From contig NZ_JQJJ01000013.1 of assembly GCF_000745475.1 (NCBI RefSeq), forward strand, positions 372,001 to 436,000: a stretch of 64,000 bases of DNA, given 5' to 3'. The notes below the pieces were generated by a model. It was not told the DNA's origin. It worked only from the letters and a program-made list of their open reading frames with translations, and did no database searches. This document shows positions 38,306 to 51,432 of the stretch, piece by piece. How positions within the stretch are numbered: position 1 is the first letter of the stretch; every line of letters begins with the position of its first letter. The translations under genes and the position numbers were made by a program. Source of the stretch: Allobosea sp. UNC402CLCol (lineage in GTDB: Bacteria > Pseudomonadota > Alphaproteobacteria > Rhizobiales > Beijerinckiaceae).

Positions 38306-38331
38306 GGAACAGAAGCAGGTCCGCCCGCGTT
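38306..38331 (+). promoter_or_regulatory. Candidate EcfG-type promoter upstream of the YqjD/YqjE-like pair
   Basis: GGAAC (38306-38310), an 18-nt spacer and GTT (38329-38331, preceded by C) match the general stress promoter pattern. The next gene starts at 38433, but a hairpin at 38343-38367 lies directly downstream. Confidence 0.4.
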
Positions 38332-38342
38332 GGCGCCCTGAG

Positions 38343-38368
38343 AGAGACCCGCATCAGGCGGGTCTCTT
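38343..38368 (+). terminator. Hairpin after polA, probable terminator
   Basis: AGAGACCCGC (38343-38352) pairs with GCGGGTCTCT (38358-38367) across a 5-nt loop. Only two T's follow the stem base, so termination strength is uncertain. It lies about 60 nt after the polA stop. Confidence 0.55.
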
Positions 38369-38432
38369 GCGGCCAACGTCCAGTCCGGACACCATTGGTC
38401 TTCACGGCATCGAGCGACAGGAAACCAGCGTC

Positions 38433-38792
38433 ATGGCAAGAACGACATCTCCGAAACGTTCGGCGGCCGCGGCCGTCAAGGACGCCAAGGCCGGGATCGA
38501 AGCCGGCACCGAGGATGTCGCGCAGAAAGCGCGCCGCGCCGGTGCCCGTGCCAAGCGTCAGGCGAGCGCGCTCGAGGAGACCCTGACCCGCAGCGCCGAG
38601 GATATCGCCGCAACCGTCAGCGACCGGCTGCGCTCCGTCGGCGTCGATACCGACCGGATGGTCGACGTCGCCAAGGAACAGGCGACAGAATTGCAGAAGC
38701 TGGTCGAGGACGAGATTCGCGAGCGGCCCCTGCGGGCGCTCGGGCTGGCGGCCGCCGTCGGCCTCTTCGTCGGCTACCTTTCGGCGCGATAG
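38433..38792 (+). CDS. ElaB/YqjD-like (DUF883-type) membrane-anchored protein
   Basis: This 119-residue protein has a long charged helical region (residues 1-95, rich in A, K, E and R) and one C-terminal hydrophobic helix (ALGLAAAVGLFVGYLSAR) preceded by RERPLRALG. That is the hallmark of ElaB/YqjD tail-anchored proteins, some of which bind ribosomes at the membrane in stationary phase. Start is ATG 38433. It is 3 nt upstream of the YqjE-like gene, so the two are surely co-translated. A candidate stress-sigma promoter lies upstream, consistent with the stress induction known for enterobacterial relatives. Confidence 0.75.
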   Translation: MARTTSPKRSAAAAVKDAKAGIEAGTEDVAQKARRAGARAKRQASALEETLTRSAEDIAATVSDRLRSVGVDTDRMVDVAKEQATELQKLVEDEIRERPLRALGLAAAVGLFVGYLSAR

Positions 38793-38795
38793 CCG

Positions 38796-39227
38796 ATGTT
38801 CGGGGGGCTCGGTTCCTTCATCGCTTCGGAAGTCTCCGGAACGGTGAAACGCAACGCCACGGTCTTCGGCCTGTTCGCCTTCGCGGCCCTGTTGCTGCTC
38901 TGCGCCGGAGGCTACGCGCTCAATGCGCTGCACATCGTTCTGACGGAGCGCTATGGCGCGGTCGCGGCAAGCCTGTGGATCGCGGGCGGCCTCGCGATCT
39001 CGGCGCTGATCGCCTTCGGCATCGCGCTCTTCGTCAGGAACCGCCCGCGCCCGCAGCGCCCGATCGCCGCCACCGCGGCCTTCGCCGCCGCTCCGCTGGC
39101 CGCCAAGATGCTGACCTCGCGGACCGGATGGCGCATCGCGGCCCTGGCTGGAATCGCGGTGCTGGGCACCGTCCTCGGCCGGCAGCTTTTTTCGGGCGGT
39201 GACGGCGAGGACACGGATGAGGCCTGA
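38796..39227 (+). CDS. YqjE/holin-X-like inner-membrane protein
   Basis: This 143-residue protein has two or three transmembrane helices: about residues 23-46 (VFGLFAFAALLLLCAGGYAL), 58-82 (SLWIAGGLAISALIAFGIALF) and a weaker one near 112-128. It matches the layout of the phage-holin-like YqjE/DUF1469 group that accompanies YqjD-type proteins. The start lies 3 nt after the previous stop. The acidic tail ends GDGEDTDEA. The function is unknown; a role in envelope or membrane adaptation under stress is inferred from the pairing. Confidence 0.7.
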   Translation: MFGGLGSFIASEVSGTVKRNATVFGLFAFAALLLLCAGGYALNALHIVLTERYGAVAASLWIAGGLAISALIAFGIALFVRNRPRPQRPIAATAAFAAAPLAAKMLTSRTGWRIAALAGIAVLGTVLGRQLFSGGDGEDTDEA

Positions 39228-39306
39228 AGCGCCTCACCCCGCGCGGGTGGACGGAGGCTGTCTTTTTACATAGGGATACGGGTATGCGTCCTGTAACAGG
39301 ACAGGC

Positions 39307-40683
39307 ATGTCTGATCTCGTGAGGCCCCGGAACCGCTTGCCGCTCCCCGCCTTTCCCCTGCTCGGCGCGCGGCTGCGCTCAGCAACGATCACGATCGGCG
39401 CGATCGGCGTCGTCGCCATCGCGATCGTTCTGGCGGCCTGGATCAATCTGCAGGCGCGCCACGCCGCGGACCAGGTTTCGCACGCGATCGAGATCCGGGA
39501 ACGGGCGGAACGCTTCCTCGGCCGGCTCCGCGATGCCGAAACCGGCCAGCGCGGCTATCTGCTGACCGGTCAGGCCGCCTATCTCGAACCCTTCACCGAA
39601 GGCAGTGCGACGGCCGGTCCGGAGCTCGACGTGCTCGAGGCGCTGGTCGATGCCGACCCTGCCCAGAAGCAGCGCGTGGCCAGCCTGCGCGAGACCATGC
39701 GGCTCAAGCTCACCGAGCTGAACAGGACGATCGAACTCACGCGCAACGGGCGCCGCGAGGAGGCCGTCGCCATGATGCGCGACGGGCCCGGCATCGCCAC
39801 GATGGACAAGCTGCGCGACGCGGTCCAGGAAATCCAGCAGACGGAGAACATCCGCCTGCGCTCGCTCTACCGCAGCGAGGAACGGCGACGCCTTTGGGGA
39901 AGCACCGGCATCGTCGTCGCCCTTGCCGGGCTGGCCTTCGCCGCCTGGCAACTCCTGCGCAGGCGCCAGCGTCGCAGCACGGAGCTGGCGGTCAGCAATG
40001 CCGAGCTCGAGCAGATGGTCAACGATCGGACCCGTGAGCTCGAAGGCGAGCGCCTGCGCATCGAGGCGCTGCTGCGTGACGTCAATCACCGCGTCGGCAA
40101 CAACCTCGCCATGGTCTCCGCATTGCTGAACGTGCAAAGCCGGCAGACGCGCGAGCCTGCGGTCAAGGCGGCGCTGGGGCAGGCGCAGTCCCGCATCCAG
40201 GCGATCGCCGCCGGGCAAAGGCGGCTGCGCTTGGACATCGAGACCGATGCCATCGAGGCGCGTCCTTACATGGAGGACCTGCTCGCCGAGATCGGCAAAT
40301 CGGCCGAGGGACGGCCGATCACGATCGAGCTCGACATGGATTCGATTCGGCTGCCTGGCCGCGATGCGGTGTCCTATGTCGTCATCGTCAATGAGCTCGT
40401 CACCAACGCGATCAAGCACGCCTTTCCGGACAACATGGCCGGGCGGATCGCGATCCGCCTCGAACGCGCCGAGCAGGACGGCGAGCCCGCCCTGTCACTG
40501 TCGATCGAGGATGACGGCATCGGCATGCCGGCGGAGAACCACAGCAAGGGGCTCGGCCAGACCGTGATCGCGAGCCTGCTGCGCAGCATGCGGGCGACGA
40601 TGACGACGCTGCCGCTTCACCCCGGCGCCGACCGCCCGGGAACTCGTGTCACCGTGATTTTCCCGAAGCGCGACGGCGCCTGA
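39307..40683 (+). CDS. CHASE3 sensor histidine kinase (HisKA_2/HWE type)
   Basis: This 458-residue membrane kinase has TM1 at about 22-45, a periplasmic CHASE3 domain (RFLGRLRDAETGQRGYLLTG at about 70-89), TM2 at about 197-214, a coiled linker, and an HWE-class kinase core. H261 in VNHRVGNNLAMV is the phosphorylated histidine. The N box is intact (VNELVTNAIKHAF, N362 and N367), as are G1 (EDDGIGMP) and G2 (KGLGQTVI). It should therefore be an active kinase. It converges on the single-domain response regulator gene 18 nt away. Kinases of this class feed PhyR in other alphaproteobacteria, so it is a good candidate input to the stress response encoded nearby. Confidence 0.88.
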   Translation: MSDLVRPRNRLPLPAFPLLGARLRSATITIGAIGVVAIAIVLAAWINLQARHAADQVSHAIEIRERAERFLGRLRDAETGQRGYLLTGQAAYLEPFTEGSATAGPELDVLEALVDADPAQKQRVASLRETMRLKLTELNRTIELTRNGRREEAVAMMRDGPGIATMDKLRDAVQEIQQTENIRLRSLYRSEERRRLWGSTGIVVALAGLAFAAWQLLRRRQRRSTELAVSNAELEQMVNDRTRELEGERLRIEALLRDVNHRVGNNLAMVSALLNVQSRQTREPAVKAALGQAQSRIQAIAAGQRRLRLDIETDAIEARPYMEDLLAEIGKSAEGRPITIELDMDSIRLPGRDAVSYVVIVNELVTNAIKHAFPDNMAGRIAIRLERAEQDGEPALSLSIEDDGIGMPAENHSKGLGQTVIASLLRSMRATMTTLPLHPGADRPGTRVTVIFPKRDGA

Positions 40684-40701
40684 CCTCTGGGGGCAGGCGG
40701 A

Positions 40702-41079
40702 TCAGGCGATGCTTTCGGGAACGATGCCCCCGATCGCCGCCATGACGAAAGCCACGACCTCGCGCGTCGAGAAGGGCTTGCGCAGGAAGCGAGCCTGCCG
40801 CAGCGGCTTGGGCACCTCCTGCGGCGCCGAGCCGGACACGAAGGCGAAGGGAATGCCGGTCTTGCGCAGCGTGTCCGCGACTTCGAAGGTCTTGCCGTCG
40901 ACGACGTCGATGTCGAGCAGGGCGCAGGAGAGCTGCCCGGCTGCAGCCCGCCAGGCCTGAGCGACGGATTCGACGACGATGAGCTCGGCCGCCTCGCCGA
41001 GCTGCTCCGCCACCGCCATTTCGATGTCCATGGCGATGAACGGGTCGTCTTCGACAATCAGAACGCGAACAGCAGCCAT
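40702..41079 (-). CDS. Single-domain response regulator
   Basis: This protein of about 125 residues is a receiver domain with no output domain. The acidic pair is D11/D12 in LIVEDDPFIAMD, the phosphoacceptor is D56 in ALLDIDVVDG, and the lysine is K101 in RKPFS. The usual threonine/serine position is S82. ATG 41079 is preferred; a GTG at 41100 would add 7 residues. An EcfG-type promoter lies 39 nt upstream. Stress-controlled lone receivers (such as Sphingomonas SdrG and Caulobacter LovR) tune phosphate flow to PhyR. A similar job is inferred here. Confidence 0.85.
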   Translation of the reverse strand: MAAVRVLIVEDDPFIAMDIEMAVAEQLGEAAELIVVESVAQAWRAAAGQLSCALLDIDVVDGKTFEVADTLRKTGIPFAFVSGSAPQEVPKPLRQARFLRKPFSTREVVAFVMAAIGGIVPESIA

Positions 41080-41117
41080 TGAAACGGCTTTCTCACTCAC
41101 TTCAACCTGTTACCCCC

Positions 41118-41142
41118 AACGTAACAGGGGTCACGATGTTCC
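41118..41142 (-). promoter_or_regulatory. EcfG-type promoter of the single-domain response regulator
   Basis: On the minus strand GGAAC (41138-41142), a 17-nt spacer and GTT (41118-41120, preceded by C) match the alphaproteobacterial general stress promoter exactly. The direct neighbour is the receiver gene. Confidence 0.7.
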
Positions 41143-41236
41143 TGCCTCCAACGCGCCGCGGCCAGGATTACATCCGTTTTGACTCAATTCTGTCGGATCA
41201 CGGTTAGCAAAGGGTAAGCGCCCCCCTCCCACGCGA

Positions 41237-41743
41237 TCAGCGCCGGCGCCCGGTACCGGAGCTCGCGAGCGTCAACTCGAATTGCGTGACGCCACCGGCG
41301 GCATTGAAGCCGCGCGTCGTCTGAATCGCACGCGGCTGCAAGCTGACCTTGTCATCCTCGCCGCCGATCAAGGGCGATGAGGCGGCACCGCTTGCGGGCG
41401 CGGCGGCGGCCGTCTGCGCCGTGTAGCGGCCGTTCAGCGCGCCGAGCGGAGCGCGCGCATAAGGGCCGTAGACATGCCAGGACATCGTCGTGGGGCGGAT
41501 CGAGCCGAGATCGAGGCCGAACTGGCGGACGATGCCGGTATAGTACTGCATCGGCCCTCGCCTCGGCCTGAAACGGCATTCGAGCGGCTTTTGCGTCTTC
41601 ACGGCCGCCCCGAAGCTCGCCCCGACCGTACAGGACAGCCGCCCGGTCGGAGGCCCCGACTGCGCCCGCGCCGGGACCGGGCCGAACAGGCAGGCGAGCG
41701 CGGCCGCGGCGCCGAAGCATGACGTGTAGTGCCGAATGCTCAT
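41237..41743 (-). CDS. DUF992-family secreted protein
   Basis: This 168-residue protein has a signal peptide (residues 1-28, hydrophobic core CFGAAAALACLFG, cleavage after ARAQ). The mature part starts with GRLSCTVGASFGAAV and contains the paired cysteines and the SWHVYGPYARAPLGALNGRY segment typical of DUF992, a periplasmic protein family of unknown function common in Hyphomicrobiales. The C-terminal tail with LIGGEDDKVSLQPRAIQ is also family-like. Start is ATG 41743; an upstream extension lacks a signal sequence. It is monocistronic, and no EcfG-type promoter was found. Confidence 0.75.
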   Translation of the reverse strand: MSIRHYTSCFGAAAALACLFGPVPARAQSGPPTGRLSCTVGASFGAAVKTQKPLECRFRPRRGPMQYYTGIVRQFGLDLGSIRPTTMSWHVYGPYARAPLGALNGRYTAQTAAAAPASGAASSPLIGGEDDKVSLQPRAIQTTRGFNAAGGVTQFELTLASSGTGRRR

Positions 41744-41919
41744 CTTGAAAGCTCCCGCCAGAGGACTCACCGCCCGGATCGCACTGCAATCTGGGTGATC
41801 ATGCATTCCCTATCAATATGCGAAGACGGATGCACCGTTCGGGTCGATTTCGACACGATCGGGTCCGGCTTCGGGTGACCCAACGAAACGCCTCAAGATG
41901 CCCACAGTTCCGGCATAAT

Positions 41920-41944
41920 GGAACCACCGAGAGCCTGTTGCGTT
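41920..41944 (+). promoter_or_regulatory. EcfG-type promoter of the 79-residue unknown protein
   Basis: GGAAC (41920-41924), a 17-nt spacer and GTT (41942-41944, preceded by C) form an exact match. The small gene begins 28 nt after the -10 element. Confidence 0.65.
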
Positions 41945-41972
41945 GCGGCTTCATCCTGGCATGGGAATGTCG

Positions 41973-42212
41973 ATGTCCGTGAGTCGCCTGCGTGGGAAAA
42001 CCCCGACACCCCCGGAGCCGACCGCCGGAGCGGATCTGCTCGTGCCGCCGTTCTGGGAGCTCGAGGATCTGCTCGCCGACGGGCTCGCATGCGAGGCGGC
42101 CCTTCAGGTGATGGCCGCCCGCCGCGCCGCGCTGAGGCTGGTCGACGGCTCGGAGCCTGAGGCCGACCCGGCCAGTGAGCTCGCCGCCCGCCGCTTCAAG
42201 CTGATCTTCTGA
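41973..42212 (+). CDS. Small soluble protein of unknown function, probable stress regulon
   Basis: I do not recognise this 79-residue protein. It has a proline-rich N-terminus (RLRGKTPTPPEP), then an acidic amphipathic segment FWELEDLLADGLACEAAL and a basic segment VMAARRAALRLVDG, ending ELAARRFKLIF. No signal or membrane helix is visible. ATG 41973 has GGGAA about 8 nt upstream; ATG 41961 and ATG 41967 are alternatives. An EcfG-type promoter lies just upstream, so expression during general stress is likely. The alternation of acidic and basic helices suggests protein-protein contact, which is speculative. Confidence 0.6.
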   Translation: MSVSRLRGKTPTPPEPTAGADLLVPPFWELEDLLADGLACEAALQVMAARRAALRLVDGSEPEADPASELAARRFKLIF

Positions 42213-42231
42213 GCGCAAGACGACCGCGAAC

Positions 42232-43038
42232 CTATTGGCAGAAGCGCGAGGCATGCGTGCGGCGCTCCTGAATGTCGATGTGCAGATGGTCGGCGTGGGC
42301 GGCATCCGCGCCGGGCCCCAGCGCCGTCATGAACGCGCCGCAGGCCGATTGGCGCACGGCCGTCAGGAACCGGTTCTGAGCCAGGCCGGCCGGCTTCTCC
42401 ACCGAAACCTGCGTCGCGGCTTTCCCCTCGCCGAGGTGGAACGCGAAGATGTCGAGCGCCTTGCCCGTGGCATGCTCGCTGACGGGCCCGGCCGAGGCGC
42501 GGTTGCGTCGCCGGCATTCATGCCCGCCGCCGACGCGCAATTCGGTGAGATCGCTGTCGAAATGTCCCCGTGCCAGCGGCCGGACGCTATCGTCGAGCCA
42601 GCCCGCGACGGTCTTCGCCATGACGCAGCTCAGCGTCACCGGCGGCGCGAAGGTGACGGTGCCCGCGCCCGCCGTCCCGGTTGCGCGGAGGGCAAGTGCC
42701 TTCACGATGACGGGCTCGTCGACGCGGCAGGCGGGATCGCCTTGCGCGAGCTTCGGATCGGCGGCCTCGACGCTGTTGCCCGGGATTGCCTTGAGAGCCG
42801 CCAGGCAGGACGCTTCCCCGCCTGCGGGTAACGTTTTCGCCTGCTCGCTGGCAGGCGGGGCTGCGCCCACCGGCGCCGCGGCAGGCCGCATCCCGAGCTG
42901 TTCAGTCGAAGGGCCAAGCTCGGCCGGCCGGACCGGCGGAAGCGCGCGCGAAAACGCCCCGCCGTCCTTCCGCGACGCCTGCGCGGCGGCAGGGGCGTCG
43001 GAAAGAAGCGGCAAGCCGCAACAGAGAGCCAATGCCAC
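42232..43038 (-). CDS. Extensin-family (DUF2272/LAS-like) secreted protein
   Basis: This protein of about 268 residues has an extensin-like C-terminal domain, a bacterial fold related to peptidoglycan D,D/L,D-peptidases. The zinc-site-like residues lie in SEHATGKALDIFAFHL and HADHLHIDIQ. Four cysteines in the domain could form disulfides. A hydrophobic stretch with APAAAQA resembles a signal-peptide cleavage region. The start is unclear: GTG 43038 lacks a basic N-region, while the reading frame continues upstream through LIRPARS, so a rarer start near 43066 overlapping the previous stop codon is possible. It follows the 54-residue gene on the same strand and probably shares its stress promoter. 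Confidence 0.7.
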   Translation of the reverse strand: MALALCCGLPLLSDAPAAAQASRKDGGAFSRALPPVRPAELGPSTEQLGMRPAAAPVGAAPPASEQAKTLPAGGEASCLAALKAIPGNSVEAADPKLAQGDPACRVDEPVIVKALALRATGTAGAGTVTFAPPVTLSCVMAKTVAGWLDDSVRPLARGHFDSDLTELRVGGGHECRRRNRASAGPVSEHATGKALDIFAFHLGEGKAATQVSVEKPAGLAQNRFLTAVRQSACGAFMTALGPGADAAHADHLHIDIQERRTHASRFCQ

Positions 43039-43061
43039 AGCGAGGCTGCGAGCGGGCCGGA

Positions 43062-43226
43062 TCAGCCGTCGAGGGCCGAAGCGCTGGCCACCGCAATGCT
43101 GGTCAATGCCGCGAGCGCCAGCGAGAGAATCTCGTTGCTGATCGCTCCGGGCTGCACCGTTCCGGAAAACAACGCAGCCGCGACCGTCGCCGCGCCCCCT
43201 GCTGCAACCACGAAGGTCGTTGCCAT
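43062..43226 (-). CDS. 54-residue hydrophobic protein of unknown function, probable stress regulon
   Basis: This small protein is almost wholly hydrophobic, with two possible membrane helices: residues 4-22 (TFVVAAGGAATVAAALFSG) and 32-50 (ILSLALAALTSIAVASASA), joined by TVQPGAISNE. GGGGAGG lies about 10 nt before ATG 43226. An EcfG-type promoter lies 47 nt upstream, and the extensin-family gene follows directly, so they form a probable stress-induced pair. No family is recognised. A signal-peptide-bearing peptide or a small two-helix membrane protein are both possible. Confidence 0.6.
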   Translation of the reverse strand: MATTFVVAAGGAATVAAALFSGTVQPGAISNEILSLALAALTSIAVASASALDG

Positions 43227-43272
43227 GGCCCACACCCTCCCCAACTGCAAACCAACCCGACATCAAGTCGCG

Positions 43273-43297
43273 AACGCAGCGTGACGAGGCTTGTTCC
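43273..43297 (-). promoter_or_regulatory. EcfG-type promoter of the 54-residue protein and extensin-family pair
   Basis: On the minus strand GGAAC (43293-43297), 17 nt and GTT (43273-43275, preceded by C) match exactly. A 40-nt leader would contain the GGGGAGG ribosome site. Confidence 0.65.
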
Positions 43298-43359
43298 GCA
43301 GCGTGCGCCAAAAGCAAGGCCCGCAGCGAAGGCGAGCCCGATTATCCTTCACAGATCCT

Positions 43360-44154
43360 TCACGCCGCCTTCCGGCCGGCCCGGCGATCGAAGAACAGCG
43401 CCTGGCTGATCGCAGCCTTCACCGCCTCGGGCTGGAACGGCTTGGTGATGAGGAAGGCCGGCTCCGGCCTGTCGCCCGTCAAAAGCCGCTCCGGATAGGC
43501 GGTGATGAAGATCACCGGCACGTCAATCGAGGTCAAGATCTCGTTAACGGCGTCGAGACCGGAGCTGCCATCGGCCAGCTGAATATCGGCGAGCACGAGC
43601 CCGGGGCGCTTCTTGGCGACCAGAGCGATCGCCTCGCGCTGGGTGCGCGCAATGCCGGTGACGCTGTGGCCGAGCTCCTCGACCATCGTCTCGATGTCGA
43701 GCGCGATGATCGGCTCGTCCTCGATGATCAGGACATCGGTCGCGACCTGCTCGGCGATTTCCTGGCCCGCGATCTGAACCAGCGCGGCGGCGTCCGGGGA
43801 CGAGATCTCCATGATCGCCGCAACCTCCTCGATCGAGAAGCCCTCCACGGTCCGCAGCAGGAAGGCCTGGCGCGGACGCGGCGTCAGTGCCTCGAGATTG
43901 CGCTCGGCCGGCGAATTACCGAGCTCGACAACCGTCTCGCGCGTGTCGATTCCGACCGAGGACCAGAGCTTGAGGAAGGTCCGGTAGAGCCCGATGCGCG
44001 GGTCCAGGTCACGGGGAAAGCTGGAGGGGTCGGCGATGAGCGCTTCCAGCATGGCGACGACATGCGCGTCGCCGCTGGTCTGCGTGCCGCTCAACGCGCG
44101 AGCGAAGCGGCGCAGGTAAGGAAGATAAGGCGCAATTTCCTTGGCTATCGTCAT
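43360..44154 (-). CDS. phyR: General stress response regulator PhyR
   Basis: This 264-residue response regulator has an inverted layout. An N-terminal sigma-factor-like domain (residues 1-130, with IAPYLPYLRRFARALSG and TPRPRQAFLLRTVEGFSIEEVA) is followed by a receiver with D146, phosphoacceptor D190 (VLADIQLAD), T218 and K238. When phosphorylated it mimics EcfG and sequesters NepR, freeing the sigma factor. It is divergent from nepR-ecfG. AAGGA lies upstream of ATG 44154. I saw no exact EcfG promoter for phyR itself. Confidence 0.97.
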   Translation of the reverse strand: MTIAKEIAPYLPYLRRFARALSGTQTSGDAHVVAMLEALIADPSSFPRDLDPRIGLYRTFLKLWSSVGIDTRETVVELGNSPAERNLEALTPRPRQAFLLRTVEGFSIEEVAAIMEISSPDAAALVQIAGQEIAEQVATDVLIIEDEPIIALDIETMVEELGHSVTGIARTQREAIALVAKKRPGLVLADIQLADGSSGLDAVNEILTSIDVPVIFITAYPERLLTGDRPEPAFLITKPFQPEAVKAAISQALFFDRRAGRKAA

Positions 44155-44231
44155 CAAACCGTCCTTTTTATTGTGCGCGGATAATGACTTAGGTACCGCA
44201 GGAGACAAGCAATTTATTTTTTTGGAAAGTG

Positions 44232-44256
44232 GGAACCTTTCAAGAGGGAGGCTGTT
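44232..44256 (+). promoter_or_regulatory. EcfG-type promoter of nepR-ecfG
   Basis: GGAAC (44232-44236), 17 nt and GTT (44254-44256) match the general stress promoter and lie 111 nt before nepR. Autoregulation of this operon is well known in the group. Confidence 0.75.
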
Positions 44257-44367
44257 ATTAGGGCGCATTGGTGTCGCCGTCGCCGCCCGAGGCTGGTTCC
44301 GCCATGATCGGAAGTTACATGCGGGACCTGCTGGAAAAGCAGGCCTGGTCTCGGCGCGAGGGCTGAT

Positions 44368-44589
44368 ATGACGAATCTGGATGCTGCAATGCCTGATCCC
44401 GGAGGCGACAACGACGATCTCGACATGGTTCTCGATCCCAGGGTCCAGGAATCCATCGGCCGCTCGCTGAAGGCGCATTACGACGACATCGTGAACGCGC
44501 CGATACCCGACAAGTTTCTCGTGCTGCTGGCGCAGCTGGAGGCGACGGAGCAGCGCGCAGGCGGAGCGTCGTCCCATGAGTGCCAATGA
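44368..44589 (+). CDS. nepR: Anti-sigma factor NepR
   Basis: This 73-residue anti-sigma factor holds EcfG inactive until PhyR~P binds it. The two conserved helices are visible in IGRSLKAHYDDIVNAPIPD and KFLVLLAQLE (about residues 31-60), with the NepR signature PIPDKF between them. The disordered acidic N-terminus is typical. Its last 14 nt overlap the start of ecfG, giving tight translational coupling and balanced amounts of both proteins. Confidence 0.95.
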   Translation: MTNLDAAMPDPGGDNDDLDMVLDPRVQESIGRSLKAHYDDIVNAPIPDKFLVLLAQLEATEQRAGGASSHECQ

Positions 44590-45166
44590 CTGCAAGGCGA
44601 GCGACTTCAAGGCCAATGAGTTCAAGGACGGCCTGATCAAGGAGATTCCGAATCTCCGCGCCTTCGCCGCCTCTCTCTCCGGCTCGATGCAGCTCGCCGA
44701 CGATCTGGTTCAGGACACGCTGCTCAAGGCCTGGGGCAATTCCGAGAAGTTCGAGCCGGGAACGAGCCTGCGCGCCTGGCTCTTCACCATCCTGCGCAAC
44801 ACCTATTATTCGCTCTACCGCAAGCGCGGCCGCGAGGTGCAGGACAGCGAAGGCACCTATGCCGAGCGTCTGGCGACGCATGGCAACCAGGAAAGCCATC
44901 TCGATCTCGCCGACTTCCGCAAGGCGCTGGCCAAGTTGCCCGAGGAGCAGCGCGAGGTGCTGATCATGGTCGGCGCGACCGGGCTCTCCTATGAGGAGGC
45001 GGCGGAGATCTGCGGCGTCGCGATCGGAACCATCAAGAGCCGCGTCAATCGTGCCCGCACCAAGCTCGCCGAACTCCTCTCCATTGGCAGCGTCGACGAT
45101 CTCGGACCGGATCGGACCAGCGCGGCCGCCATGCAAAGGGCGGGCTCCGAACCAGTCGGCTCCTGA
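44576..45166 (+). CDS. ecfG: ECF sigma factor EcfG (general stress response)
   Basis: This 196-residue extracytoplasmic-function sigma factor contains region 2 (about 22-90: FAASLSGSMQLADDLVQDTLLKAW and FEPGTSLRAWLFTILRNTYYS) and region 4 (about 120-175: LPEEQREVLIMVGATGLSYEEAAEICGV with HTH IGTIKSRVNRAR). It lacks zinc-finger or other extra domains. It directs RNA polymerase to GGAAC...GTT promoters, many of which lie nearby. It overlaps nepR by 14 nt and ends exactly where the next kinase gene begins. Confidence 0.96.
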   Translation: MSANDCKASDFKANEFKDGLIKEIPNLRAFAASLSGSMQLADDLVQDTLLKAWGNSEKFEPGTSLRAWLFTILRNTYYSLYRKRGREVQDSEGTYAERLATHGNQESHLDLADFRKALAKLPEEQREVLIMVGATGLSYEEAAEICGVAIGTIKSRVNRARTKLAELLSIGSVDDLGPDRTSAAAMQRAGSEPVGS

Positions 45167-46822
45167 ATGCGCCTGACGCGATTCAGCACTGTCCGGGGGC
45201 GCTTGCTGGCGCTGCTGATCGCGATCGCGCTTCCGATCGGCTGCGTTACCGCCCTGGCTGCCGCCACGGCCTATCGCACCATCACCGGCGCCATCGAGAC
45301 CGCGCAGGTCCGGGCGGCCGACGAGTTCGCCATTCGCACGCGGATCTGGTATCGCGGCGCCCTGCGCTCGCTCCTGTCCTTCGGCACGGCCACGGCCGAA
45401 GCCGGGCTTTCGCCCGAGCTTTGCAGGGAGGCCGGCCTCAAGATGCTCGCCCAGGTCCGCGGCTTCTCCGCCGTGCTGGTGCGCGGCGCCGACGGGCAGC
45501 TTTGCACCGCAGCGCTCGATGCCGGCATCGATGCGCAAACGCTGGATCGAACGGCGACGCGCCTGCGCGACCTTCCCGCCGTGGCGCCCTGGAGCGGCAT
45601 CGATCTCGGCAAGTCGCATTACGACCAGGCCACGATCGGCAACCGGCGCTATCTCACCGTGCATACCGAAAATCCGACGGCATCCGGAGCGGGTCTGCGC
45701 GAGGCTCTGCTGCTGATCGAGCCCGAGGTGCTGGAGAACGTCTTCGACCTCGGCGAGGGCGGCACGGACATGGATGTCGCGCTCGTCTCGCAAGGCAGCG
45801 GCGTGGTCGCCAGCCGCGGCGACGGCGAGGCTCTGGGCTGGCTGCCGCGCGACGCCCGTCTCCCGCAGGCGCTTGAGCGCTGGCGCGCGCCGAGCCGCCA
45901 GGGCGACGAACGCGTCTATGTCGCGCGCATGGTCGCCGAACCCGATTTCTACGTCGTCGCCTCCTTCGACGATTCGCGCGAGCAGGGCGCGCGCATCCAG
46001 TTCGCGGTGCTCCTGCTCGCGCCGTTGCTGACATTGACCTTGCTGTGCATCGTCTATCTGCGCGCCATCGACCGGCACTGCGTGCGCTGGCTGCGCAGCA
46101 TCGAGGCGGCGGCCCGCTCCCGTGCGACCGCGCGACGGGCGGCGCGTGCGGCCGTCGCCGACGACATGCCGAGCGACATCCGCAGCGTCGCCGAAGCCTT
46201 CAACATGATGGTGGACGAGCAGGAGGTGCGGCAGCGGCGCCTGCAGACCGCCCTCGACGACAACCGCTTCCTGGTGCGCGAACTGCACCATCGGGTGAAG
46301 AACAGCCTCCAGGTGGTGCAGAGCTATATCGGGCTGACCAAGCGCGACTATCGCGACGAGGCCAGGCTCGCCTTGGCCGACGCGGAATGCCGCGTCCACG
46401 TCCTGTCCGCAGCCTATCGCTTCACCCTCGCGGATGGCGAGATGCAACCGGTCCGGGTCGACCTGTTCCTCGAGGACGTCGTCACGATGATCTCGAACCT
46501 GATCCGCCGGCGCGATCAGTGGATCTCGGGCCGGATCGAGACAGCCGCGACCTTGTCGGTCGATCGCATCATCCCTCTCGGCTTTCTCGTCGCCGACGTC
46601 GCCTCACGCGTGCTGCGCAGCACGCCCGGGGTGCGGATCACGCTGACGGTCCACGATCTCGACGACACGACGATCGAGGTCGCGATCGAGGCCGACCGCG
46701 AGATCGTGCATCAGGAGCCACCGCGCCTGTTCGCCGGCCTGCTCGCGCAGATCGAGGCGGTTCAGTCCGGACCGCCGGAGGGGCGCAATCTCGGGCGTTG
46801 GCGAGTCAGCCATAAGGGCTGA
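45167..46822 (+). CDS. Membrane sensor histidine kinase with degenerate ATPase domain
   Basis: This 551-residue protein starts at ATG 45167, directly after the ecfG stop codon, so it belongs to the nepR-ecfG operon. TM1 lies at about 8-30, followed by a periplasmic sensor domain of some 245 residues, TM2 at about 282-302, a HAMP-like linker, and a HisKA_2-type dimerisation segment with H375 in ELHHRVKNSLQVVQ. The C-terminal ATPase part is abnormal. Where the N box should be it reads PLGFLVADVASRVL, with no asparagine, and no DxGxG or GxGL loop follows. Autophosphorylation therefore looks impossible. Related kinases next to ecfG (PhyK-type) control PhyR, so this may be a pseudokinase or phosphatase-type regulator. 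Confidence 0.8.
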   Translation: MRLTRFSTVRGRLLALLIAIALPIGCVTALAAATAYRTITGAIETAQVRAADEFAIRTRIWYRGALRSLLSFGTATAEAGLSPELCREAGLKMLAQVRGFSAVLVRGADGQLCTAALDAGIDAQTLDRTATRLRDLPAVAPWSGIDLGKSHYDQATIGNRRYLTVHTENPTASGAGLREALLLIEPEVLENVFDLGEGGTDMDVALVSQGSGVVASRGDGEALGWLPRDARLPQALERWRAPSRQGDERVYVARMVAEPDFYVVASFDDSREQGARIQFAVLLLAPLLTLTLLCIVYLRAIDRHCVRWLRSIEAAARSRATARRAARAAVADDMPSDIRSVAEAFNMMVDEQEVRQRRLQTALDDNRFLVRELHHRVKNSLQVVQSYIGLTKRDYRDEARLALADAECRVHVLSAAYRFTLADGEMQPVRVDLFLEDVVTMISNLIRRRDQWISGRIETAATLSVDRIIPLGFLVADVASRVLRSTPGVRITLTVHDLDDTTIEVAIEADREIVHQEPPRLFAGLLAQIEAVQSGPPEGRNLGRWRVSHKG

Positions 46823-46855
46823 GATCGCTGCGCGGGCGGGTCTCCAGCGCGTCGG

Positions 46856-47746
46856 TCAGCAGGGCTTTTCCAGCGGAGCCTCAACCGGCTCGATCAGGAC
46901 GCCGACGCTCAACCCCAGGAAGGCGCCCGGCGGCCCCGTGAAGCTGCCGGCGATCGGCGATGCGTCCTCGGGGACACGCGCCACCGCGATGCGCAGAAGC
47001 TGCCGATCGGCGACGAGATCATTGGTCGGATCGAACTCGACCCAGCCATCGCCGGGGATGAAGACATCCGCCCAGGCATGCGTCAAGCCGACAGGCGAGA
47101 TGAGCCCGGCCGCGTCCGGCGTCTGATCCTGGATATAACCGGTGACGAAGCGCGCCGCGAAACCCATGCGGCGCGCCAGCTCGATGAACAGCCAGGCGTA
47201 GTCGCGGCAGGAGCCGCTGCCGAGCAGCAGCGTGTCGGCCGGATGCTGGGTACCCTCGTCGTAGCGGACGGCGTAGCTCAGCCCGGCATGGATCGCATGG
47301 GCGAGATCACGCAGGAGATGGCCCGAACCCGGGCCGAACCCGGCACGGAAATCGGCGAGCCAGCGCTCGATCACGCCGTCGGGATCGGCCGCGGCGAGGT
47401 GGAGATAGGGCTGCAGGACCATGCGTTCGCCGTCGCTGTAGACGACACCGGTCAAGGCCGCGCCCGGTGCGAGCCTGCTGCGCGGCAGCGCCGAACCGAA
47501 GCGCTCGAGCATCAATTCGCTGACGATCTCGAGCGTGTCGTGGGGTTCCGCGAATGTCGCGACGGCGACCGGGTTGCCATAGGCATCGTGCATCCAGCGC
47601 AGCATCGCAGGAGGCGAGATCGCCAGGGCGGTATCGACCAGCCGCAGATCAAAGCTGTCGCGCGGCCTGAGCATCAGCCGATGCGGGCCGAAGCTGACCG
47701 GCTCGGCATAGCGGTAGGTCGTTGCATGGCGGACACGCAGATGCAT
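46856..47746 (-). CDS. Transglutaminase-like cysteine protease family protein
   Basis: This 296-residue protein has an N-terminal bacterial transglutaminase-associated domain (LRVRHATTYRYAEPVSFGPHR) followed by a transglutaminase core. The catalytic triad is visible as cysteine in GSGSCRDYAWLF (about residue 181), histidine in GLTHAWADVFIPG and aspartate in WVEFDPTNDLVADRQ. Proteins of this COG1305 group are widespread and mostly uncharacterised; peptidase action is likelier than cross-linking. No signal peptide is seen. A terminator-like hairpin and a candidate stress promoter lie upstream. It is convergent with the kinase gene. Confidence 0.88.
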   Translation of the reverse strand: MHLRVRHATTYRYAEPVSFGPHRLMLRPRDSFDLRLVDTALAISPPAMLRWMHDAYGNPVAVATFAEPHDTLEIVSELMLERFGSALPRSRLAPGAALTGVVYSDGERMVLQPYLHLAAADPDGVIERWLADFRAGFGPGSGHLLRDLAHAIHAGLSYAVRYDEGTQHPADTLLLGSGSCRDYAWLFIELARRMGFAARFVTGYIQDQTPDAAGLISPVGLTHAWADVFIPGDGWVEFDPTNDLVADRQLLRIAVARVPEDASPIAGSFTGPPGAFLGLSVGVLIEPVEAPLEKPC

Positions 47747-47775
47747 CGGTTCCCCTGTCGGCGCCCTTCACCCGC

Positions 47776-47803
47776 AAAAAACAAGCCGCCCCAGGGCGGC
47801 TTT
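47776..47803 (-). terminator. Rho-independent terminator (minus strand) upstream of the transglutaminase gene
   Basis: On the minus strand AAGCCGCC pairs with GGCGGCTT around a 4-nt loop, followed by G and six T's (47781-47776). It could end transcripts from the 92-residue gene, attenuate the transglutaminase gene or end a small RNA. Confidence 0.7.
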
Positions 47804-47828
47804 GAAGTGCGGCGCGAGGATGCGCTGC
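47776..47828 (-). ncRNA. Candidate short stress-induced RNA or attenuated leader
   Basis: An EcfG-type promoter at 47835-47859 and the strong terminator at 47776-47803 would bound a transcript of about 50 nt. It would carry an unpaired 5' part with a UCCUC motif, complementary to Shine-Dalgarno sequences, and a 3' terminator stem. No protein fits. It may simply be the attenuated leader of the transglutaminase mRNA. Confidence 0.3.
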
Positions 47829-47834
47829 GGGCTC

Positions 47835-47859
47835 AACGCGGAAAAGCGTGATTGGTTCC
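47835..47859 (-). promoter_or_regulatory. EcfG-type promoter upstream of the transglutaminase gene
   Basis: On the minus strand GGAAC (47855-47859), 17 nt and GTT (47835-47837, preceded by C) match exactly. The first gene downstream is the transglutaminase at 47746, with a terminator in between. Confidence 0.5.
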
Positions 47860-47868
47860 GCTGCTCCT

Positions 47869-47953
47869 GGAGCATTTTCGAGCGAAGTGGACACCGGTTT
47901 GCGTGAAGAAAATGCGATAAAACAAGGAGATCGGAGAAGCGCGGAAATGCTCT
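47869..47953. repeat. Hyphomicrobiales-type dispersed repeat
   Basis: The ends GAGCATTTTC and GGAAATGCTC are near-perfect inverted repeats; inside are CGAAGTGGACACCGGTTTGCG and AAGAAAATGCGATAAAACAA. This sequence type is scattered widely in rhizobial genomes. Its right end supplies the stop codon region of the 92-residue gene. Confidence 0.7.
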
Positions 47954-48230
47954 AGCGCAGGATCAGGGCGCGGACGCCATCCGCCATCGCCTGCTTCGAC
48001 GGCGCCGGGATGCTGCGGCGGGCGGCGCTCTCGCTGCGGTCCGCCCGATCGACGGCGGCGAAGCGGGCTTCACCCGGCTGCGCATGACCACGCAAGGCGG
48101 CAACGGTGGTCGAGCTCTGGTCGGTCGGCATCTGCAAGCCGGCGCCGAAGCTCAGGCCGGTCACCACGGCCGCCATGCAGCCGAAAAAGAACAAGGCGCG
48201 CTTGGCGGGGGCCAGGCTGTCGTTCAGCAT
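47952..48230 (-). CDS. Small membrane-anchored protein of unknown function
   Basis: This 92-residue protein has one hydrophobic helix at about residues 12-32 (ALFFFGCMAAVVTGLSFGAGL) and a polar, presumably periplasmic remainder with STTVAALRGHAQPGEARF. It ends DGVRALILR, with its stop codon inside a dispersed repeat. No family is recognised. A candidate EcfG-type promoter (18-nt spacing) lies upstream, divergent from the one before the Crp/Fnr gene. Confidence 0.55.
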   Translation of the reverse strand: MLNDSLAPAKRALFFFGCMAAVVTGLSFGAGLQMPTDQSSTTVAALRGHAQPGEARFAAVDRADRSESAARRSIPAPSKQAMADGVRALILR

Positions 48231-48284
48231 CTTCGTCTCCCAACGCCTGCGCCAGCCCGGATGGGCCGGCTGTTACGAGATAGA

Positions 48285-48310
48285 AACGCGGCCGGACGGT
48301 TTCCGGTTCC
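48285..48310 (-). promoter_or_regulatory. Candidate EcfG-type promoter of the 92-residue protein
   Basis: On the minus strand GGAAC (48306-48310), an 18-nt spacer and GTT (48285-48287) resemble the stress promoter, with one base more than most sites here. The gene starts 55 nt downstream. Confidence 0.4.
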
Positions 48311-48357
48311 CCGGGACGGGACGACGAAGGCAAAAGCTGGTCGAAACCGGCCCTCGT

Positions 48358-48383
48358 GGAACGCCGAACGGCTTCCCGGCGTT
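48358..48383 (+). promoter_or_regulatory. Candidate EcfG-type promoter of the Crp/Fnr gene
   Basis: GGAAC (48358-48362), 18 nt and GTT (48381-48383, preceded by C) lie 47 nt before the start codon of the regulator. Confidence 0.45.
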
Positions 48384-48430
48384 ATTCGGCCGCCGGCGCA
48401 ATCTTCCGCCGCGAGGGGGGAACAGATTCA

Positions 48431-49189
48431 ATGATGAACCTCAATTCGAGGCCGGGCCGCATCGGCACGCCCTGCCTTGCCTGTCCTTTGCGCATGAAGC
48501 CCGCCTTCGAGGACAAGACCGATGACGAGATCCGTTTCATCCAGGCGATGAAGACCGATCACCGCAGCCTGAAGGCGGGGAGCGACATCATTAGCCCGGA
48601 CCAGGAAAGCGCCGAGCTCTACACGCTCTTCTCGGGCTGGGCCTTCCGCTACAAATCCCTGCCGGACGGGCGCCGCCAGATCCTCAACTTTCTCCTGCCC
48701 GGCGACATCGTCGGCCTGCAGGCCTCCCTGCTCGCCGCGGCCCAGCACGGCATCGAAGCGCTCACCGATGTCGAACTCTGCGTTTTCCCGCGCAAACGGA
48801 TCTGGGACCTGTTCGTGCGGATGCCCAATCTCGCCTATGAGCTCGCCTGGCTCGGCTCCCGCGAGGAGTCCATGATCGACGACAACCTGACCTCGGTGGG
48901 CCAGCGCAATGCCAGCGAGCGTATCGCGGCCCTCGTCATCACGCTCTATCGCCGCGCCGATGCGCTCGGGCTGGTCAGCGACAGCAGCTTCGACTTTCCC
49001 CTGTCGCAGCAACAGCTTGCCGATGCGCTTGGCCTCTCCCTGGTCCATACCAGCAAGACATGGTCGAAACTGCGCAAGGCGGGGCTGTTCACCATTTCCG
49101 GCGGACGGCTGACCCTGCTGAATCCGCGCCTCACCGCCCGCATGGCCGCTGTCTACGAGCAGAGCAAAGCGCCGCGGCCGCTGATCTGA
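48431..49189 (+). CDS. Crp/Fnr-family transcriptional regulator
   Basis: This 252-residue regulator has a cyclic-nucleotide-binding-fold sensor domain (about 30-145, with LYTLFSGWAFRYKSLPDGRRQILNFLLPGDI reduced here to its core GRRQILNFLLPGDIVG) and a winged-helix domain (about 165-230, LSQQQLADALGLSLVHTSKTWSKLRKAG). The N-terminus has CLACPL, two cysteines only, so an Fnr-type four-cysteine iron-sulfur cluster is not supported. GAGGGGGG lies 10 nt before the ATGATG start. The upstream stress-type promoter suggests it is a second-tier regulator of the stress response. Confidence 0.9.
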   Translation: MMNLNSRPGRIGTPCLACPLRMKPAFEDKTDDEIRFIQAMKTDHRSLKAGSDIISPDQESAELYTLFSGWAFRYKSLPDGRRQILNFLLPGDIVGLQASLLAAAQHGIEALTDVELCVFPRKRIWDLFVRMPNLAYELAWLGSREESMIDDNLTSVGQRNASERIAALVITLYRRADALGLVSDSSFDFPLSQQQLADALGLSLVHTSKTWSKLRKAGLFTISGGRLTLLNPRLTARMAAVYEQSKAPRPLI

Positions 49190-49310
49190 CGCCATTTCGT
49201 GGCCAACGGCCGAGATGGGGCTTGGCGAGAGGCCAGACTTGACCCCATATGCCGGGTGGGTAACGTTCCGCAGCGCTTGAAGGCGAAGTTCGGGGCGCGC
49301 AAGGGGTATC

Positions 49311-50105
49311 ATGTCTTCGACGATCAGACATCGTCCGCCGCGCGCGGGCTCGATCGCGGCCCGGCTCGGCCAGTCGCGCGTCGCCAGCCGGCTCGAAGGC
49401 GAGGTGCGCGTCACCGCGGCCGATCTGGTCGATTGCGTGGCCGAGGCCAGGCTCAAGGTCGCGGCCGTCCGCTACAAGGTCGAAGGCGAGGTCCGCAACA
49501 AGGCGGAGAAGCTCAAGAGCCGCGTCAGCGTGGCCGCGGAGAAGCTGGGCGACGAGGCGCGCTTCATCAAATCCTGGATCGACGATCCGCTGCGGACCGG
49601 CTCGGTAACCCCCTCGAGCCCGGCCCTGGCGCGGCGCATGGCGTCCTATGTCGATCCGGAGCAGCCCGGCCCCGTCATCGAGATCGGCCCTGGTACCGGT
49701 CCCGTGACCGAAGCCCTGATCGAGCGCGGCGTCGACGAGGAGCGTCTCATCCTCGTGGAATACAGCCCCGAATTCTGCGAATTGCTGCGCAAGCGCTTCC
49801 CGCGGGCCACCGTCGTCCAGGGCGATGCCTACGCCCTCTCGACAACGCTGGCGGGGCACCTGACCGAGAAGGCCGCCGCCCTGGTCTCGAGCCTGCCCCT
49901 GTTCAACCGCCCGCCCCCGAGCCGGACGGCGCTGGCGAAGGAGGCGTTCCCGTTGATGGTCGAAGGCGCGCCCTTCATCCAGTTCACCTATTCGGTGATC
50001 TCGCCGATCCCGCGCAAGGGCTCCGGCCTGAAGGCCTTCGTCTCCGATTGGGTCCTGCGCAACATTCCGCCGGCGCGGGTCTGGGTCTACCGCGAAGCGA
50101 GCTGA
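49311..50105 (+). CDS. Phospholipid N-methyltransferase-like SAM methyltransferase
   Basis: This 264-residue protein has a catalytic domain (about residues 85-264) resembling rhizobial PmtA, which methylates phosphatidylethanolamine toward phosphatidylcholine. The block FIKSWIDDPLRTGSVTPSSPALARRMASYVD precedes SAM motif I EIGPGTGPVTEALIERG and LVEYSPEFCELLRKRFP; only short cores of these are diagnostic. Unusually, about 80 residues of basic/acidic helical sequence (RLEGEVRVTAADLVDCVAEA and VEGEVRNKAEKL) precede the domain and could bind membrane. AAGGGG lies upstream of ATG 49311. A role in membrane lipid adaptation is inferred. Confidence 0.75.
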   Translation: MSSTIRHRPPRAGSIAARLGQSRVASRLEGEVRVTAADLVDCVAEARLKVAAVRYKVEGEVRNKAEKLKSRVSVAAEKLGDEARFIKSWIDDPLRTGSVTPSSPALARRMASYVDPEQPGPVIEIGPGTGPVTEALIERGVDEERLILVEYSPEFCELLRKRFPRATVVQGDAYALSTTLAGHLTEKAAALVSSLPLFNRPPPSRTALAKEAFPLMVEGAPFIQFTYSVISPIPRKGSGLKAFVSDWVLRNIPPARVWVYREAS

Positions 50106-50190
50106 GCCCCGTCGGATCCGGTTGCGGGCCATGCAAATAATGCGGGCCAGCCGAACCGAATCGTAACCGCTCGACGTTAGACAGCCTGTT

Positions 50191-50216
50191 GGAACGGGCG
50201 TTGCATCGGACCTGTT
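50191..50216 (+). promoter_or_regulatory. Candidate EcfG-type promoter of the diguanylate cyclase gene
   Basis: GGAAC (50191-50195), 18 nt and GTT (50214-50216, preceded by T) lie 26 nt before the start codon. This is the weakest of the nine sites. Confidence 0.35.
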
Positions 50217-50241: not shown

Positions 50242-51432
50242 ATGAGCGGTGCAGCCCTGCGTTACACTCTGCCGCGCTGGCGCGTGACGCGCTGGCTCGC
50301 CGATGCCGGCCCGGACGTTCCTGCCGAGATCAGGACCGCACTGATCGCCAGCCTGTTCGGCACGCTGCCGATCTTCGTCGGCGGCGTCATCAACTCGCTC
50401 GCTGTTTCCTTCCTGATCGCCTGGCGCATCCCGACCCTGCCGTTCCAGCTCTGGTGCGTCTTCGAGGTGCTGTGCTGCCTCGCCCGGCTCTTCGTGCTCA
50501 TCAACGCCCGCCGCAGGGCGGAACGCGGCGAGCCGACCTGGACGGACACCTATCTCCTGCTCGGCGTGGCCTGGGCGGCCGGCATCGGGGCCGGCACCTT
50601 TCTGAGCCTGACGAGCGGCGACTGGGTCGTCGCCACACTCGCCTGCCTGTCGGCGGCCGCCATGGTCGGCGGCATCTGCTTCCGGAATTTCGGAGCGCCG
50701 CGCATGGCGGGCGTGATGATCGGGCTGACGCTGGGACCATGCTGCTTCGCGACGCTGTTCGCCGGCGAGCCGATCATGCTCATCACCTTCATGCAGATCC
50801 CGCTCTATCTCTTCAGCATGACGGTCGCGGCCTACAAGCTGAACGGGATGCTGATCTCGACGATGCGGGCCGAGCGCGAGAACGCCTTCCACGCCCGTCA
50901 CGACATGCTGACCGGCCTGTCGAACCGGGCCGGGCTGACACGTGCCTTCGAGACCCGCTTCGGCAGCGCCTCCGCCCCGCACGGCCTGGCGTTGATCTAT
51001 CTCGATCTCGACGGCTTCAAATCCGTGAACGATACCCACGGCCACCCGGCCGGCGACGCGCTGCTGCAGCTCGTCGCCGAGCGATTGCGCGGCCTCGTGC
51101 GCAGCTCCGACCTTGCCGCGCGGATCGGCGGCGACGAATTCGTCGTCCTGTCCGAGCAGACCGAACGGGTGCAGCTGCAGCGCATCGGCGAGCGCCTCGT
51201 CGCGGAGATCTCCGAGCCCTACGAGCTCGACAGCGGCCACCGGCTGCATATCGGCGCCTCGGTCGGCATTGCGCTGGCCCCTGAGCACGGAACCGACATG
51301 AACGCCCTGATGGTGGCGGCCGACGCAGCGCTCTACCAGGCGAAGTCGCGCGGAAAATCGCTTTGCGTCATCGCCAGCCAGCGCGCCGTCATCGACGGGC
51401 AGGGCGCCGGCAACCGCCCTCTCCTGCACTAA
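50242..51432 (+). CDS. Membrane diguanylate cyclase (GGDEF)
   Basis: This 396-residue protein has an N-terminal membrane region with about five or six helices between residues 30 and 215, then a GGDEF domain. The active-site GGDEF is intact at about residues 296-300 ([11 protein letters not shown]), with the upstream [19 protein letters not shown] segment and [22 protein letters not shown]. It should therefore make c-di-GMP. The inhibitory site RxxD is not obvious. It lies in the stress region with a candidate stress promoter directly upstream. A GspE/MshEN-like domain in the glycosyltransferase at 26391-28316 is one possible c-di-GMP target in the same window. Confidence 0.9.

Follow-up and report, generated by a model that had tools for sequence, protein, structure and literature searches.

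Why do so many sequences resembling EcfG-type promoters lie within 12 kb of one alphaproteobacterial genome, and which genes would they control? The question arises in a stretch of 64,000 nucleotides of Allobosea sp. UNC402CLCol (contig NZ_JQJJ01000013.1, positions 372,001 to 436,000 of the forward strand), which we call the window and whose numbering we use throughout. A sequence-only reading had listed nine matches to GGAAC-N17/18-GTT between 38306 and 50216, with phyR, nepR and ecfG in the middle, and had interpreted the region as a packed stress region holding the core switch and a good part of its regulon. Our analysis partly supports this interpretation. Judged by its sequence, the region is the core locus of the alphaproteobacterial general stress response (GSR) of a Bosea species. 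We put a probability of about 0.78 on a reading in which this locus carries nine EcfG-type promoters, has phyR on a conserved element that is not of the EcfG type, holds a linked relay, and shares its clustering of sites with related loci.

The three core genes were confirmed by Pfam, and PhyR also by its solved relatives. The anti-anti-sigma response regulator gene phyR (43360..44154, minus strand, with an ATG at 44154) encodes a sigma-like domain fused to a receiver (PF22029, PF22233 and PF00072), and its relatives in the PDB include 4g97 and 3n0r, among others. The gene for the anti-sigma factor, nepR (44368..44589, plus strand), adjoins ecfG (44576..45166, plus strand); its product matched PF18557 with 51.8 bits against a cut-off of 25.7, and the NCBIfam NepR model with 27.2 bits, below the cut-off of 100. 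The ECF sigma factor EcfG (ECF15) scored 251.7 bits against NF009199 (cut-off 219) and is 54-66% identical to the EcfG proteins of seven other families. Start codons throughout the region were inferred by eye, without a gene caller.

The gene that follows ecfG (45167..46822, plus strand), absent from the sequence-only reading, encodes by its motifs a protein of the PhyT/PhyK type with a degenerate ATPase, probably a histidine phosphotransferase. It has a Pfam match to HisKA_2 (PF07568) and no Pfam match to HATPase. In 25 aligned rows, the HHRVKN motif of the DHp domain is present in every one, the N-box and G1 patterns in none, and a loose G2 pattern in four. Its best NCBIfam match is the PhyK model, far below cut-off, and the alignment ends before the end of the ATPase. 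An AlphaFold model built with 24 sequences (mean predicted local distance difference test, pLDDT, 85; predicted template modelling score, pTM, 0.52) has long helices, an N-terminal alpha/beta domain, a DHp and a small C-terminal domain. A Foldseek search with this model returned integrative membrane-receptor models at ranks 1-3, dCACHE ligand-binding domains from rank 4 (with a template modelling score of about 0.65 by target), and, from rank 18, the HisKA_2 kinase EL346; a PDB sequence search gave no match at E 0.01. The model suggests a membrane topology with a periplasmic, dCACHE-like sensor domain. The N-terminal domain has two cysteines that are conserved in 24/25 and 25/25 rows. PhyK function in Caulobacter requires a periplasmic cysteine (PMC5964349).

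Two further candidate components of a relay lie upstream of the core genes on the window. A lone receiver domain (40702..41079, minus strand) retains the conserved Asp in 24/24 rows. Among solved structures it is closest to SdrG (5ieb, E 1.1e-10) and next closest to 2lpm (Sma0114 of S. meliloti). A search of the genome at E 0.001 revealed no other SdrG-like lone receiver; three further receiver matches sit in open frames of 329, 449 (PhyR) and 521 amino acids. A CHASE3 HisKA_2 histidine kinase, probably a Pak-like sensor kinase (39307..40683, plus strand), has the HRVGN, N and G1 patterns in 19/19 rows and the G2 pattern in 13/19, and matches the NCBIfam PhyK model below cut-off. With a PhyT/PhyK-type gene after ecfG and an SdrG-like receiver nearby, most of the known relay appears to be linked at this locus. 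The receiver, DUF992, phyR, nepR and phyT-like genes are found together at the locus in all 23 relatives with untruncated contigs.

Candidate promoters were scored with a matrix trained on 159 sites located before genes that are orthologous between the window and its Bosea relatives. Only spacers N17 and N18 were collected, giving 132 and 27 sites, respectively, with GCGTT favoured at -10. Conservation was assessed in 24 relatives of the same genus, where each denominator counts the relatives that yielded the gene together with sufficient upstream sequence, and three controls (spacers of 12-15, spacers of 20-23, and the reversed motif) were run on the same upstream stretches. Nine sites in the window score at least 15.3. 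The nepR-ecfG-phyT operon follows a predicted N17 promoter at 44232..44256 (plus strand; score 18.7; 23/24 relatives), the GGAAC of which is identical in all 25 rows of an alignment of the nepR-phyR intergenic region. Another N17 site precedes the lone receiver (41118..41142, minus strand; 18.8; 23/23), and an N18 site the yqjD-yqjE-kinase operon (38306..38331, plus strand; 17.2; 18/18). The remaining sites precede six further genes or operons: the DUF992 gene (41887..41911, minus strand, N17; 21.6, the best score in the window; 18/23), the gene of a small protein with a PFWELE stretch (41920..41944, plus strand, N17; 18.6; 13/13 relatives with a detected orthologue), a 54-codon open reading frame (ORF) with an extensin-like gene behind it (43273..43297, minus strand, N17; 16.6; 15/16 relatives with the ORF), a transglutaminase-like gene (47835..47859, minus strand, N17; 20.2; 8/17), a small protein gene (48285..48310, minus strand, N18; 16.5; 24/24), and a Crp/Fnr gene (48358..48383, plus strand, N18; 15.3; 10/22). 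The controls gave 0 or 1 in most rows, the exceptions being the gene at 41920 (5/13 and 2/13) and nepR (3/24). These results support the prediction that the nine sites are EcfG-type promoters.

All nine coordinates given in the sequence-only reading were exact, with spacers of N17 or N18, and by our start codons, inferred by eye, each of those sites is intergenic and points at a gene. The list overlooked 41887(-), the top scorer, and also did not include an N16 match inside the phyT-like gene (46446..46469, minus strand; score 11.5), which is probably due to chance. The listed site at 50191..50216 (plus strand) fared worse: its score of 8.5 is comparable with those of other weak matches in the window and it was found in 0/11 relatives, so that it is probably not a conserved promoter and the diguanylate cyclase (GGDEF) gene behind it (50242..51432, plus strand; Pfam) is a doubtful EcfG target. 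The packed stress region stands as to its GSR core genes, its EcfG-type sites and a clustering far above random; it may or may not hold a good part of the regulon, and the cyclase probably does not belong to it.

The phyR gene differs from the other core genes. No strict EcfG site was found within 260 nt before phyR in any of 25 Bosea genomes (the window and its 24 relatives), and in the 25-row alignment an element of the type CTTGTC-N17-CATTAT is kept where such a site would be expected, its -10 part varying among species. In the window this element, with an A-rich tract upstream, occupies 44181..44223 (minus strand) and resembles a housekeeping promoter, which makes it the putative promoter of phyR. 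In four Bosea relatives an insertion with an inverted repeat separates the promoter-like element from phyR, so that the element lies further off. Outside the genus, a strict phyR-side site was present in 7/7 genomes of other families and, in a larger survey of named loci described below, in 57/69 non-Bosea loci; as none of the five Bosea of that survey has one, its total is 57/74. The phyR-side survey covered 74 of 80 named loci, six having been dropped for a weak or missing phyR match or for too little upstream DNA.

How unusual the clustering is was assessed by counting strict GGAAC-N16..19-GTT matches on both strands, the N17/18 subset being used for cluster statistics. The window has 11 such matches, all of them between 38306 and 50216, and 10 have N17 or N18. 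The source genome (5.61 Mb, 16 contigs) has 326 matches for N16-19; N17 accounts for 140 (66 + 74) and N18 for 85, together 225. Ten of these 225 fall in the 11.9 kb of the region, against a mean of 0.48 per equal-sized window, making it the densest N17/18 cluster of the genome, ahead of clusters of seven on contig C3 and six on contig C14. A genome-wide density equal to that found here, which by the sequence-only reading's own test would have refuted it, was therefore not observed, and the clustering stands. The local density is raised and the genome-wide total is not.

The same enrichment was sought around ecfG in other genomes. The survey comprised the best 80 of 591 candidate loci, all from named genomes and five of them Bosea, with up to 10 kb on each side of ecfG. 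These 80 loci contained 534 N17/18 sites, where the counts for eight other spacers would predict 82.75. Across the 61 full-length non-Bosea loci, the 2-kb bin just before ecfG, which includes the core promoters, had a density of 1.44 sites/kb; in the other bins from 6 kb upstream to 8 kb downstream the density was 0.12-0.49, compared with 0.02-0.10 for the control spacers. In bins more than 6 kb upstream or 8 kb downstream it fell to the control level (0.02-0.07 vs 0.03-0.08). Four full-length Bosea loci had 9-11 sites per 20 kb, at the upper end of the range; several Mesorhizobium, a Microvirga and a Maritalea locus, with 9-12 sites, equal them. Enrichment in the neighbourhood of ecfG being common to the 80 loci, the clustering is not special to the source genome. 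A PhyT-type protein and a lone receiver occurred together in 5/5 Bosea loci and in 0/75 others, a comparison in which profiles built from Bosea will miss distant forms.

Several findings weigh against the reading given at the outset. Genome-wide, the pattern read backwards occurs 252 times (183 with N17, 97 + 86, and 69 with N18) against 225 for the real motif, so that most matches elsewhere may be due to chance. The matrix scores the very Bosea promoters on which it was trained, an overlap which leaves conservation as the independent support, and the sites before the transglutaminase-like and Crp/Fnr genes were found in just 8/17 and 10/22 relatives. The CHASE3 kinase is present in the examined region of 18/24 relatives, one of the other six being a truncated contig. 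In 24/24 rows the lone receiver reads FVSGS where the FATGUY stretch would be expected, for which reason we call it an SdrG-like relative and not a FATGUY member; receivers near Mesorhizobium ecfG mostly have FASGY, and also FATGY. A strict phyR-side site is missing from 12 of the 69 non-Bosea named loci as well, so Bosea is not alone in this respect. A weak EcfG-like match lies inside nepR, about 325-363 nt before phyR, scoring 11-14.6 in 16/25 Bosea. A second EcfG paralogue, 49% identical, is encoded at C8:828318-828818; no site scoring at least 14 was found in the 19 kb round that gene.

The matches could have been produced by chance or base composition. The motif has just eight fixed bases, its genome-wide total lies below the backwards control, and 46446(-) and 50191(+) do resemble chance matches. 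However, shuffled windows had 2.97 N16-19 matches on average and never more than 8, against the 11 observed, 5000 runs in which 225 points were placed uniformly at random gave at most 8 per window against 10, and the sites are kept before the same genes while the control-spacer counts are low. Shuffles, random placement and conservation all lead us to reject chance for the nine strong sites taken together, and we regard it as extremely improbable. The random placement assumed uniform positions and is blind to GSR genes clustering for other reasons, and an account of just that kind is reasonably probable: the clustering may be the ordinary outcome of GSR gene placement, with this locus a normal member of its class. 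The enrichment across the 80 loci and the genera that match the Bosea counts both favour it, as does the fact that, with the 2 kb before ecfG set aside, the bins out to 8 kb remain above control, except that from 8 to 6 kb upstream. It leaves two features of Bosea unexplained, namely the missing strict phyR-side site and the joint presence of a PhyT-type protein and a lone receiver.

Another reading is that phyR is still controlled by EcfG through the weak match inside nepR. That match scores 12.1 in the window, and a matrix score of at least 14 within 400 nt of phyR was reached in 3/5 named Bosea loci and in 4/25 of the Bosea set, compared with 58/69 non-Bosea loci; all of the Bosea cases are the match inside nepR. 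Against such control, 9/25 Bosea score below 8, fifteen of the sixteen matches have GAAAC or GGAAT as their -35 box, the match overlaps a conserved NepR coding stretch, the leader would exceed 300 nt, and the window has a well-placed conserved element in CTTGTC-N17-CATTAT. We consider this control improbable. A further reading makes the lone receiver a LovR-like phosphate sink that damps the response, in place of an SdrG/MrrA-like hub. The receiver lies behind an EcfG site, as lovK and lovR of Caulobacter are under SigT control (PMC5964349), and its altered FATGUY stretch would suit such a role. Yet its best solved match is SdrG, followed by 2lpm, and with no second lone receiver of this kind at E 0.001 a sink would leave the relay no hub, which makes this role unlikely, if less so than control of phyR from within nepR.

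If the reading of a core locus with linked relay and a separately driven phyR is correct, stress-sensing kinases, the local CHASE3 kinase included, would phosphorylate the SdrG-like receiver. The PhyT/PhyK-type protein, having lost its ATP-binding motifs, would move the phosphate from the receiver to PhyR, phosphorylated PhyR would take NepR off EcfG, and freed EcfG would fire its promoters at the locus and elsewhere. Through this loop the amounts of EcfG, of its inhibitor NepR, of PhyT, which holds PhyR, and of the upstream relay would rise, but that of PhyR would not. An unchanging amount of PhyR should therefore cap the response, which may also be self-damping. Control of both phyR and nepR-ecfG by EcfG is thought to hold their ratio steady (PMC4814048). 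As a tentative proposal, to which we would give rather less than even odds, Bosea has rewired the GSR feedback: EcfG would amplify NepR, the PhyR-holding phosphotransferase and the relay, with a constitutive promoter left to PhyR, and the amplifying switch would have become a generator of self-limiting pulses with its entire relay encoded at one site. If this were true, a genus that autoregulates the inhibitor side only would be a natural experiment on the sign of feedback in the GSR. The linked phosphotransferase, receiver and, often, kinase may also offer a compact relay for biochemistry outside Sphingomonas and Caulobacter.

The remaining genes of the region are a varied set. The first operon begins with a YqjD-like protein with a DUF883_C domain (38433..38792, plus strand; Pfam; start inferred) and a YqjE-like membrane protein (38796..39227, plus strand), for which there was no family match and which is named from its position and hydrophobic stretches. 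The DUF992 protein (41237..41743, minus strand; Pfam) is probably exported. Its promoter candidate at 41887(-) and that at 41920(+) form a divergent pair, back to back, with their GGAAC boxes 8 bp apart, and the pairing occurs in many Bosea relatives. The 41920(+) site overlaps the first TTG of the small ORF, so the true start should be downstream, probably at ATG 41961; the protein so defined (41961..42212, plus strand; start inferred) has no Pfam or NCBIfam family, and its PFWELE stretch is readable in most Bosea rows despite low overall similarity.

The protein with an Extensin-like_C domain (42232..43065, minus strand; Pfam) has a signal-like stretch beginning at 43065, with the frame open further upstream. 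Between it and 43273(-) lies the hydrophobic ORF of 54 amino acids (43062..43226, minus strand), which the sequence-only reading did not include, which had no NCBIfam match and which is present in 16/23 relatives examined. The site points first at this ORF and then at the extensin-like gene; where the ORF is missing (7/23 relatives), extC was found in six cases, with the site 76-111 nt upstream in 6/6. Downstream of the phyT-like gene follow a transglutaminase-like protein (46856..47746, minus strand; Pfam), a small protein with an N-terminal hydrophobic stretch and no Pfam or NCBIfam family (47952..48230, minus strand), a Crp/Fnr-family regulator (48434..49189, plus strand; Pfam; NCBIfam FnrL/FixK below cut-off; start inferred) and a PmtA-like methyltransferase (49311..50105, plus strand; Pfam; NCBIfam below cut-off). 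The methyltransferase gene has no site of its own in the window, and one was found in 1/24 relatives. Enrichment round ecfG in the 80 loci could serve as a quick way to nominate GSR genes, such as those of the three small proteins here without a family match. A tRNA-Gly gene lies 2.4 kb beyond the region. Since the clustering is a local feature of related GSR core loci and is kept within the genus, the region is unlikely to be a recently acquired mobile island; the five genes found at the locus in all 23 untruncated relatives also speak against a sporadic distribution.

EcfG-type sites also occur elsewhere in the genome. Among ten proteins hand-picked from site clusters, and thus not a random sample, the strict motif precedes genes for an ATP-dependent DNA ligase, PRC-barrel proteins (one just below the Pfam cut-off), DUF892, Pyrid_ox_like and L,D-transpeptidase proteins and glycogen/alpha-glucan enzymes. 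Sites before such typical GSR genes agree with the use of the motif by EcfG and suggest that targets are likely outside the region too. In 400 kb of sampled DNA there were three sites scoring at least 15, from which a rough and partly circular estimate gives about 42 equally strong sites genome-wide, compared with nine here; several plausible sites, those of the DNA ligase, PRC-barrel and DUF892 genes, stay under 14 and miss the threshold of that estimate. An estimate of regulon size from spacer excess was dropped, the N17 backwards control (97 + 86) exceeding the real count (66 + 74). Contigs C3 (74 kb) and C14 are unusually rich in EcfG-type sites, with 15/225 and 29/225. On C3, DNA ligase, PRC-barrel and L,D-transpeptidase genes lie behind such sites, and C11 carries similar copies of the first two, again with EcfG-type sites. 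The two contigs are possibly an accessory stress replicon.

Among the literature matches listed, there was no paper on the GSR of Bosea or on enrichment of EcfG promoters round ecfG, subscription papers lying outside the coverage; the one listed paper that mentions Bosea, EcfG and the general stress response is a duckweed microbiome study, with EcfG in its references only (PMC12329958). Published EcfG-type promoters are described as GGAAC-N17-20-GTT (PMC6599016) or GAAC-N16,17-C/GGTT (PMC4814048), the same boxes as in the Bosea sites, with no meaningful difference. The GSR core as known from Methylobacterium, Bradyrhizobium, Sphingomonas melonis Fr1 and Caulobacter is like that of Bosea in its three proteins, in their divergent arrangement, in the EcfG-type promoter on nepR-ecfG and in the kinase-like gene beside ecfG. 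Bosea differs in that phyR is without a strict EcfG site in 25/25 genomes. In the usual arrangement both the phyR and nepR-ecfG units are driven by EcfG (PMC8103513, PMC4814048), and the opposite exception is found in M. extorquens, where EcfG promoters have been mapped or predicted before phyR and nepR, and none before the six ecfG genes (PMC4814048).

The relay has its closest counterparts in the Pak-SdrG-PhyT-PhyR system of S. melonis Fr1 and the MrrA-PhyK-PhyR system of C. crescentus. In the former, PhyT, encoded at the phyR locus, has an HRxxN motif and a degenerated ATPase, and phosphate is transferred from SdrG to PhyT to PhyR (PMC5898713); in the latter, PhyK takes phosphate from MrrA to PhyR (PMC5964349). 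Shared with Bosea are a PhyT/PhyK-type protein at the core with HRxxN, an SdrG-like receiver and a HisKA_2 kinase. S. melonis PhyT and the Bosea phyT-like protein both have a degenerate ATPase, whereas Caulobacter PhyK keeps a conserved one, and the Bosea receiver differs from the SdrG/MrrA FATGUY regulators by its FVSGS. In S. melonis the sdrG and pak genes are scattered (PMC5898713), whereas in Bosea the receiver and kinase genes are linked to the core, each behind a predicted EcfG-type promoter.

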